Of a stretch of 42,650 nt of DNA, positions 39,374 to 42,650 are shown one piece after another (position 1 is the stretch's first letter; every line of letters begins with the position of its first letter). A program made the translations under genes and the position numbers. Source of the stretch: Xenococcaceae cyanobacterium MO_234.B1 (GTDB taxonomy: Bacteria; Cyanobacteriota; Cyanobacteriia; Cyanobacteriales; Xenococcaceae); the NCBI GenBank assembly GCA_030064915.1, contig JASJEK010000003.1, positions 1-42,650 of the forward strand. Direction: 5' to 3'. A model generated the notes under the pieces. It was not told the origin of the DNA, made no database searches, and was given only the letters and a program-made list of their open reading frames with translations.

Positions 39374-39464
39374 TAAGCTGATCCACATTAAACTTGCATA
39401 ATTTAGGCTCCCAAATCCTTTACTGACTTGGTTTGACGATAAAAACTCAATGTTGATCAGCTTA
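39374..39464 (+). mobile_element. MITE, copy 1 (91 bp)
   Basis: Ends taagctgatccacatt and aatgttgatcagctta pair in 15 of 16 positions. The left 29 bases and the right 20 bases match, in inverted orientation, the element at 42502-42593; the middles differ. It lies between lpxB and the ycf52-like gene. Confidence 0.8.
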
Positions 39465-39518
39465 TCCCCAATGTCAAGAAATAGCTACAGAAAGCAGGAA
39501 GCATTTACTTAAACTGCT

Positions 39519-39601
39519 GTAAAAATAGTATCAGAACTACAGAAACTTCCAGTTCAATCACCAATACTCATTATTGCCACTGATAAAGGAATTGACACTC
39601 A
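39519..39601 (+). pseudogene. Possible protein-coding remnant
   Basis: Between a stop and the next gene the frame reads TAVKIVSELQKLPVQS then PILIIATDKGIDTQW, a regular helix-strand pattern. It continues out of frame into the acetyltransferase start and then stops. I cannot assign a family. It may be the tail of a lost gene or chance. Confidence 0.25.
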
Positions 39602-40096
39602 ATGGATTGCAGCCACATTCAATTTTGTCTTGATAAATCAAAAATCAACCTAGAACAACTTCATAAACTCTTACAAATAGGTGCATTTTGGGCAAAAAAC
39701 CGTAGTATTGAAGGACTGAGTATTGCGATCGCCAATAGTAATCCAGTTGTTACGGTGTGGGCTCAAAGTCTACTAATCGGATTTGCCAGAGCTACTTCTG
39801 ACGGAATATATCGTGCTGCAATTTGGGATGTAGTGATTCACCCTGATTATCGAGGATGTGGCTTAGGGGTAAAATTAGTGGAAACAGTCTTGACTCATCC
39901 CCAAGTTAGTAAGGTAGAGAGAGTTTATTTAACTACCACTAATCAACAAAGTTTTTATGAGCGTATCGGGTTTCAGCGTAACGACACTACTACAATGGTG
40001 TTATATAACAATAGTCCCATAGAAACTATATATCAGCAGAGGATAAAGCTCAAGGCTGATGGGGAGATCTCTCAAGGGTATGATTTCAAGATTTAA
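39602..40096 (+). CDS. GNAT acetyltransferase of the ycf52/NSI type
   Basis: 164-aa protein. It has the pattern of the plastid ycf52/NSI-type acetyltransferases: LLIGFARATSDGIYRAAIWDVVIHPDYRGCGLGVKLVETVL, with the acetyl-CoA loop RGCGLG, and the end VYLTTTNQQSFYERIGF. In plants the relatives acetylate chloroplast proteins and serotonin-type amines; here the substrate is not known. Length is slightly shorter than plant NSI, as it lacks a transit peptide. A MITE lies 137 bp upstream. Confidence 0.88.
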   Translation: MDCSHIQFCLDKSKINLEQLHKLLQIGAFWAKNRSIEGLSIAIANSNPVVTVWAQSLLIGFARATSDGIYRAAIWDVVIHPDYRGCGLGVKLVETVLTHPQVSKVERVYLTTTNQQSFYERIGFQRNDTTTMVLYNNSPIETIYQQRIKLKADGEISQGYDFKI

Positions 40097-40156
40097 AGGT
40101 TTAGATAGAGTGTTTTTTTTGCATGAGTGCCTCTTTCCTTTTGCCTTGAATGTCTC

Positions 40157-40654
40157 TTATTGTCTCCAGCCACGCCCACGCCACAGGGGAAAACCATTTT
40201 CATCTCTAAGTACGAGAGTTGCATTACCTTTTTTTATCTGACTGGCGATAATCGCTTGTTCTCCGTCAATGTTAATTCTCGAACCTGTAATGGCAATTTC
40301 GTCTTCTGGTGCAATTTCAAAATCTCGTTCTTCTAAATACCAAGAAGGTGCTAAGTGTACTTCGACTGTTTCTTTACCTGTATTGACTAGAAGATGTACG
40401 CCCTGAGAAACTCCCCTTCGAGAGGTATAGGAATCTACACTAACTACCTCTCCATCAAGGGTTTCAATATTGTTGAGATCGTATCTTCTGCTATATCCAC
40501 CCCTACCCCAGCCAGACTGGTTGTCTTTACAACAATAGAGATACTCCGTCTTGTCGAGGGGTTCTTCCGCAGCAAGAGGACTAGCTGTAATTACTACTAA
40601 AATTAAGCTGGTTATAATCGTAGCTAAAATTTTCCAGGCTAGTTTGGTATTCAT
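40157..40654 (-). CDS. Secreted OB-fold-like protein
   Basis: 165-aa leftward protein. Signal peptide: ILATIITSLILVVITASPLAA, cleavage before EEP. The mature part has the pattern LDGEVVSVDSYTSRRGVSQGVHLLV, VEVHLAPSWYLEERDF, IAPEDEIAITGSRINIDGE and then ATLVLRDENGFPLWRGRGW. This order occurs in small periplasmic proteins with an OB-like domain that often accompany multihaem cytochromes (MamS/MamX-like). Two adjacent Cys (YLYCCKDN) follow the signal. No cytochrome gene is next to it. Its role is unknown. Confidence 0.72.
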   Translation of the reverse strand: MNTKLAWKILATIITSLILVVITASPLAAEEPLDKTEYLYCCKDNQSGWGRGGYSRRYDLNNIETLDGEVVSVDSYTSRRGVSQGVHLLVNTGKETVEVHLAPSWYLEERDFEIAPEDEIAITGSRINIDGEQAIIASQIKKGNATLVLRDENGFPLWRGRGWRQ

Positions 40655-40842
40655 TTATCCCTTCCTCCATACCTTCAAAAAGTTTAAGTTATGCAGACTT
40701 GCAAAATTGCTCAGGAAGTTCCTGTAATTTTAGAGTAGAAAAATAACTTGAAGAACTTGTGAGGATAAAAAAAGTAAAAAAAGTATTTTTTGATACAGAA
40801 TTCATGATATATTTATGGTAAGGAAAGTAAGGAGAACCAACA

Positions 40843-41040
40843 ATGTCTATTCAAACACAAGCTCGCTCTTTATTAATGCGCCATCACAAATTAGTCGTAA
40901 ATCGCGAAAGATCGATGTTGGCACGTACTGCCTCAGAAATTGGTGTTGATGTTGATCCCAAGTATCACACCCATATCCAAGGCAAAACTCTCAACGATTT
41001 TAATACTATTTATGATCGCTCTCATGTAGCTATGAGCTAA
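40843..41040 (+). CDS. Small conserved protein, 65 aa
   Basis: Starts at ATG 40843 with a good Shine-Dalgarno (taaggag, 40828-40834, 8 nt before). The protein begins MSIQTQARSLLMRHHKLVVNRE and contains the positively charged helix RSMLARTASEIGVDVDP. It has no signal peptide or membrane span. I believe similar short proteins are widespread in cyanobacteria but cannot name the family. Codon use and the ribosome site support a real gene. Confidence 0.72.
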   Translation: MSIQTQARSLLMRHHKLVVNRERSMLARTASEIGVDVDPKYHTHIQGKTLNDFNTIYDRSHVAMS

Positions 41041-41377
41041 GAGTGTAATTGACCCAGAAAACAATTAAATAACCTGGAAGCAAATGCAATTCGGTTTTAA
41101 GCAATTTGTAGGAGTAGGGAATGGGGTGTATTTCTAGTGTGGAAGCACCTCATTTTTGATATTTGTGGTTTAAAGGGAGAGGGGGAATTCCCACCCCGTT
41201 CAGGGGGCAGGGCTGCTCCCTGCTAGCTCAAAATGCACAATTAATTTTGCACAGGTACTTACGTCCCGTCCGAATGAGCGCGTAGCGGATTCTGGGGAGT
41301 GTCAAAAAAATGTCTGAGCCAGAAATACTAAGAATTGCAAAACACAAACAGGTATTAGCTTTCAACCGTTCCTATTA
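41041..41377. other. Intergenic region with hairpin
   Basis: No gene in 337 bp. A 6-bp GC stem (GCAGGG/CCCTGC, 41207-41223) follows a G-rich run, and 41226-41260 resembles the dispersed repeat at 13228-13262 (aattaatttt, then caggtactta or cataggtactta). Confidence 0.5.
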
Positions 41378-42313
41378 TTAGTTTCTCTCTCTTGGATTCA
41401 ATCTTTTCATGGCCACTTCTAAGCTGTATTTCATACGATTGAAGGCCATTGCCAGAATACCAATTTCATCTTTAGAATCTTCTTCAAAATCAGCTTTCAT
41501 ATCTCCAAGACTGGCAGCTTGTGCCGTTTTAGCTATTTTCTGAATTCGCTGGATTACAGTGCGTTTCAGCAAAAAATTGAGCGAAAAAACAATGAGCAAA
41601 AAAGTACCAATTAAAATTCCCAGAGTCATCACAAATGAGCGACGAACGCTCGCCATAATTTCCTCGGCTGGAACGTAGACGATCTGAGCTGCCACAATAT
41701 CGTTGAGCTTCCATCCAAAACCGTGCTTAGTCCCGTAGGTTGCCAACAAGCTCTTAGGGGCAATATCTGGAGTTGAGTGGCATTCCAGGCAACTCGGTTT
41801 CTTAATAACAATTGGTCGTGCTGTGTAAAATGCCTTTCCGAAGGAAAAGTCGCGCCAGCCATTTTTTTCCGAGGATGGTTGATTCTGGAACTCCTTTACA
41901 AGCTTAGTTTCAAACTCATCTGCCTGATCTCTTAAGTTTGTCGGATTAGGTGCAGCATTTTTAAAAATGAAATTTTCATAACCTGGATTTTTACGAAAAT
42001 ACTCAAAGACTTCTCTAGCTGAGAAGGGTGCAACTGCCTCGGGAGTGAATTTAGACTCAGTTTCTAGTCTCTCTTTTAGAAGAGGTTTAATTCGATCTTG
42101 AGTATAACTTCGAACTCCATTCATGGTTTCCATGAGGACTAAGGCTTTAGAACTAACTTCAGCTTCCGCCCTTTGCTCAAGAGCTATCCAAAATGTTGAA
42201 CCACTGAGTAAAATCCCAATGATGAAAATGAGAATTACAAATAAATTAAACTTAGTGCTAATTTTAGTATTTTTGAAAAGAGTTTTAAAAAACATACCCA
42301 TACCTATCCTCAA
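41378..42313 (-). CDS. c-type haem DUF3365 (Tll0287-like) sensor with HAMP
   Basis: 311-aa leftward membrane protein. TM1 at about 24-45 (LFVILIFIIGILLSGSTFWIA), an extracytoplasmic domain of about 180 residues with the haem attachment motif CLECH at 175-179, TM2 at about 227-249, then a HAMP (RIQKIAKTAQAASLGDMKADF, DEIGILAMAFNRM). It follows the Tll0287/DUF3365 pattern of cyanobacterial haem-binding sensors: KALVLMETMNGVRSYTQDRIKPLL, PNPTNLRDQADEFE and FYTARPIVIKKPSCLECH. It would sense redox state, oxygen or NO and pass the signal to a partner. No kinase or cyclase domain follows in the frame. Several possible starts exist near 42295-42313 (M1, M5, M7). Confidence 0.88.
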   Translation of the reverse strand: MRIGMGMFFKTLFKNTKISTKFNLFVILIFIIGILLSGSTFWIALEQRAEAEVSSKALVLMETMNGVRSYTQDRIKPLLKERLETESKFTPEAVAPFSAREVFEYFRKNPGYENFIFKNAAPNPTNLRDQADEFETKLVKEFQNQPSSEKNGWRDFSFGKAFYTARPIVIKKPSCLECHSTPDIAPKSLLATYGTKHGFGWKLNDIVAAQIVYVPAEEIMASVRRSFVMTLGILIGTFLLIVFSLNFLLKRTVIQRIQKIAKTAQAASLGDMKADFEEDSKDEIGILAMAFNRMKYSLEVAMKRLNPRERN

Positions 42314-42650
42314 CTTGATTTTTTAAACTGCTACGGTCCAGTCAGCAATTTTCATTTTGAAACCAGTTTGCGCCATAGAGAGCGAGCCCCAGATTTGTTA
42401 AGAATTATCAACCCCTCTTGGTATAAGAGTTTTAATGTCATGAAATCTTAAAATGAGAATTGCTGGCGATCCAGTAAAAGTGCTTGACCTAAAACGCAAG
42501 ATAAGCTGATCAACATCGAGTTTGACAGAACGTTTCAAGCTATATATAGGGATTGAGGGTCGGAATTATGCAAGTTAAATGTGGAGCAGCTTATGTGTGT
42601 TGCAATACTTCTCGGATAAGCAAATTGATTAATTAGTCAAGATGGGTAAA
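42314..42650. other. Intergenic end of window
   Basis: No gene seen. It includes the upstream region of the haem-sensor gene and MITE copy 2. Confidence 0.5.
42502..42593 (-). mobile_element. MITE, copy 2 (92 bp), inverted relative to copy 1
   Basis: Reverse-complemented, it begins taagctgctccacattta and aacttgcataatt and ends aactcgatgttgatcagctta, matching copy 1 at both ends. Its own ends pair imperfectly (taagctgatcaacat against taagctgctccacat). Confidence 0.8.

Follow-up and report, generated by a model that had tools for sequence, protein, structure and literature searches.

Two inverted copies of a short cyanobacterial repeat read as MITEs probably mobilised in trans by an IS630-type transposase

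What are the two short repeats that lie about 3 kb apart, in opposite orientation, on a cyanobacterial contig, and what moves them? The window, a stretch of 42,650 nucleotides, is contig C390 of Xenococcaceae cyanobacterium MO_234.B1 (G000; 459 contigs, 81% complete). A first-pass annotation, made from the letters of this DNA, had read the repeats as two copies of a MITE family mobilised in trans. Its coordinates proved exact to the base, and the pair flanks four plausible genes, as it had claimed. The features are as follows:

39374–39464, + strand: MITE copy 1, subfamily A, 91 bp with TA at both ends; in the same genome, C299 and C216 carry copies 93–96% identical to it
39374–39403, + strand: left end of copy 1, beginning with the target TA; conservation extends to about 30 bp
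39445–39464, − strand: right end of copy 1, conserved over about 20 bp, closing with the target TA
42502–42593, − strand: MITE copy 2, subfamily B, 92 bp with TA at both ends; C124 and C18 in this genome carry near-identical B copies
42564–42593, − strand: left end of copy 2
42502–42521, + strand: right end of copy 2
3 kb between the copies: genes for a GNAT acetyltransferase, a 165-aa protein, a 65-aa ORF and a Tll0287/HAMP protein

Copy 1 reads TAAGCTGATCCACATT...AATGTTGATCAGCTTA. Its alignment with copy 2 scored 38, against a mean of 7.9 and a maximum of 15 in 2000 shuffles. As had been claimed, the copies have one end of about 30 bp and another of about 20 bp in common, and their middles (41–42 bp) are unrelated, with an alignment score no higher than that of shuffles. 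The terminal inverted repeats are likewise real, but imperfect, and each side has its own sequence (left ..GATCCACATTWAACTTGCATAATT, right ..GATCAACATYGAGTTT); the outermost TA is the target; the arms of copy 1 are 89% complementary over 19 nt, and the ends of copy 2 pair over 15 nt with at most one mismatch. No ORF of at least 60 aa starts or ends inside either copy. Both elements have the make-up of MITEs: short and non-coding, with terminal inverted repeats, dispersed copies and a target-site duplication.

A genome-wide search for the ends, as the first-pass annotation had proposed, returned further copies. Allowing one mismatch, the 16-bp end matched 24 times in the genome and its reversed control pattern not at all, and BLAST retrieved more copies, two of which match the greater part of copy 1 at 93–96% identity. 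At least 10 two-ended copies belong to subfamilies A (copy 1, C299:1746–1836 and C216:5531–5638, the last with a short internal duplication), B (copy 2, C124:6668–6759 and C18:19181–19272) and C (C220, C7, C289 and C297). Subfamilies A and B have only their ends in common; members of C measure 121–219 bp, with the left end TAAGCTAATCCACATTTAAYTTGC and, mostly, the right end TAAGCTGGTCAACATC. Copy 1 was matched (E ≤ 0.001) in 8 of 60 genomes, its own included, and in none outside its cyanobacterial family; allowing one mismatch, the 16-bp end is present in 15 of the 27 genomes of that family. Among some 85,000 species scanned, the exact 30-bp left-end pattern occurred only in records of Xenococcus, Xenococcaceae, Hyella and Pleurocapsa. 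A search of plasmid DNA with copy 1 gave no match.

Individual copies show local peculiarities. The subfamily A copy at L003:1468–1575 is 108 bp long instead of 91, owing to a tandem repeat of the 17-bp GAGTTTTTATAGTCAAA, and in the right flank of the B copy at C124 (L005) the MITE is followed by a long perfect palindrome, GGTAAACGGGTATAGAGATCGCCTATAAATAGGCGATCTCTATACCCGTTTACC.

The target-site duplication, which the first-pass annotation had left to be determined, is TA. Nearly all two-ended copies start and finish with TA, and beyond it there is no further common flanking duplication. Tests at L030, L098 and G013:C52 establish one TA as the target. At L030, where a subfamily A copy lies in a relative, a continuous COP23 domain is restored if one TA is left, but not with none or two. 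At L098, the site of the insertion sequence described below, leaving one TA restores the interrupted frame to 276 aa, with a gapless alignment to a paralogue across the junction. At G013:C52, the site of copy 2 is uninterrupted and has a single TA (42 of 48 nt identical), its orthology resting on that short stretch and not on gene order; a stricter search for more copies of this empty site found only that one. The G013 site is flanked by genes that we take to resemble those for cyanophycinase and cyanophycin synthetase, and the window contig ends 57 bp past copy 2. No clean empty site was readable for copy 1 in G002 or, for the copy at C216, in either G001 or G002, where the flanks are too diverged. 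In G002, similarity to the right flank of copy 1 starts exactly at the MITE edge, but to the left of it the DNA differs, which accounts for the lack of a clean copy 1 site there; lpxB is followed by the GNAT gene, an order kept without the MITE.

A transposase gene with the same ends, the autonomous relative that the first-pass annotation had called for, exists in the same genus. With further copies and this relative both present, the outcome it had named as refuting its reading did not come about. DDE_3 transposase loci of the MITE-bearing genome were checked for the MITE ends and none has them, the legible inverted repeats being different (for example TATAGCGTTTCTC and AAGTACCTAAGCAAAATTAATTG). 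We then followed the ends of subfamily C, which led to a 1,189-bp IS630-family element in G003 (L098:2501–3689) with an intact ORF for a 370-aa DDE transposase; the protein matches the NCBIfam IS630 transposase model at 268 bits (cut-off 100), as well as Pfam DDE_3. Its ends, TAAGCTAATCCACATTTAACTT on the left and TAAGCTGAGCAACATCGA on the right (also given as TAAGCTAATCCACATTTAACTTACAATAAC and TAAGCTGAGCAACATCGATATTGCATAAAA), are unlike each other, and each is nearer to the MITE end on the corresponding side, a relation that holds for nearly all MITE copies. Over all copies, the left end differs from that of the IS at 1–5 of 24 positions, and at 3 in both window copies. We found no IS with exactly the A/B ends; the best has A for G at left position 7 and G for T at right position 9.

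Relatives of the G003 transposase (E ≤ 1e-140) occur in 44 of 391 genomes of the order, with 57–68% identity, G003 itself excepted. Nearly all of the 32 IS630 loci examined in the order end in TAAGCT, and many continue like the MITE left end, as at L127 (TAAGCTGTTCCACATTTAATTTGCATAAAA). Because most relatives share both TAAGCT and the MITE-like sequence further in, the MITE ends are typical of this cyanobacterial IS630 clade. The clade agrees with the MITEs in its terminal sequences, left with left and right with right, and in its TA target duplication; it differs in having a transposase gene, which the MITEs (91–92 bp, or 121–219 bp in subfamily C) do not have.

In the MITE-bearing genome itself, the matching IS is represented by its end, which lies on contigs C438 and C451; the interior is missing from the assembly. 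Both contigs stop inside the element, which they match at 94–96% identity over 77–87 bp that encode the transposase C-terminus. The natural reading is that a multicopy IS broke the assembly at these points, and a full resident copy spanning the breaks would be expected to have the end sequence TAAGCTRATCCACATT. The only intact relative assembled in this genome, at C108, encodes a protein 63% identical to that of G003, and it is conceivable, though improbable, that this or another IS630 relative drives the MITEs instead. It speaks for C108 that no other intact member of the transposase clade is assembled in this genome; however, its ends, TAAGCTTAAACGCA and TAAGCTTAATCGCA, fit the MITE ends clearly worse than those of the G003-type IS, whose end is present twice in the same genome. 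A further relative lies in two pieces (64% and 60%) at G000:C97:16684–18796: a second element of the IS630 type, whose ends are TATAGCGTTTCTC, appears to be nested inside it.

Together, the many copies, the TA duplications and an autonomous IS630 with the same ends support the view that the repeats are MITEs mobilised in trans. We consider both features, with a probability of about 0.93 on sequence grounds, to be non-autonomous MITEs of an IS630-type insertion sequence (IS630/Tc1/mariner superfamily) on which an IS630 transposase would act in trans. The original reading stands with the refinements that the terminal TA is target, that the copies represent two subfamilies, A and B, and that there is no sign of joint movement of the 3 kb. 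By analogy with the cut-and-paste transposition known for the IS630/Tc1 superfamily, transposase made elsewhere in the genome would bind the common ends (TA)AGCTGATCCACATTWAACTTGCATAATT and (TA)AGCTGATCAACATYGAGTTT, excise the MITE and insert it at a TA, which the insertion would duplicate. Judged from its sequences, the family is one of IS630-powered MITEs with several subfamilies. The left (about 30 bp) and right (about 20 bp) ends keep distinct sequences both in the IS and in subfamilies whose middles are unrelated; as a speculative and rather unlikely extension, each end may be recognised by the transposase in its own way, with middles perhaps swapped between fixed ends.

The arrangement in the window also invites the reading that the inverted copies form a composite transposon moving the 3 kb between them as a unit, a proposal we regard as highly improbable. 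The copies are indeed inverted, 3 kb apart and complete at both of their ends, and the segment that follows the GNAT gene does not adjoin that gene in G002. Nevertheless, copies 1 and 2 come from different subfamilies and are unrelated in their middles; each, with two ends, the standard size and a TA pair to itself, is an insertion independent of the other; and in G013 there is an empty site, with a single TA, for just copy 2. The GNAT gene beside copy 1 did not arrive with the pair, since it has the same neighbour, lpxB, in the MITE-free G002. We saw no joint movement of copies 1 and 2, and a TA outside both would be expected either way. On present evidence, the intervening 3 kb does not transpose as a unit, and we infer that the copies moved singly. 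Equally hard to sustain is the suggestion that the repeats are no transposons at all but are kept for a function, such as hairpin RNAs or terminators. Their ends can pair, and in three cases out of four a single strand gives a slightly better fold than its shuffles (z −2.1 to −2.5); yet these scores are weak and accounted for by the inverted ends, an Rfam search with the repeats returned no match, the middles are not conserved between subfamilies, one copy breaks a COP23 gene, and the TA duplication is a mark of insertion. A function gained later at single sites is possible; as an origin it is already unlikely.

A comparable element, Nezha, reportedly has an IS630-like partner and a TA target, and was described in other cyanobacteria (Anabaena/Nostoc). 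Nezha (Zhou et al. 2008) appears in PMC10969869 as a short non-autonomous MITE of cyanobacteria. The present family is likewise short, non-autonomous and cyanobacterial; the hosts differ, and the likeness is one of description. The MITEs of Anabaena sp. 90 are 77–541 bp long and mostly intergenic, some interrupting genes, and were assigned to type II because a search for an IS sharing their ends had found none (PMC3542288); unlike them, the present family has such an IS, the trait of an IS630-derived (type I) MITE. Cyanobacterial MITEs are already well described (PMC10969869, PMC3542288), and MITEs moved by the transposase of a full-length IS that shares their ends are commonplace in bacteria. 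In literature other than ISfinder and most subscription papers, we found no paper containing the end sequence, and this MITE family of pleurocapsalean cyanobacteria is apparently unnamed. What the analysis adds is a link between a MITE family and a specific IS630 clade through both ends and the TA target, together with a probable explanation, in the IS630 element, for some contig breaks. Its use lies mainly in annotation and genome comparison of pleurocapsalean cyanobacteria.

Between the two copies, at 41229–41249, an isolated CAAAATTAATTGTGCATTTTG matches a portion of the terminal sequence of a different IS630 type of this genome (AAGTACCTAAGCAAAATTAATTGTATATTTT, L060), and may be a remnant. 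At 42343–42465, 36 bp from copy 2, there is a second, unrelated MITE-like repeat of 123 bp with 16-bp inverted ends (CAGCAATTTTCATTTT and AAAATGAGAATTGCTG); this genome (at C323 and C68) and G019 have copies about 80% identical, and many relatives have parts of it.
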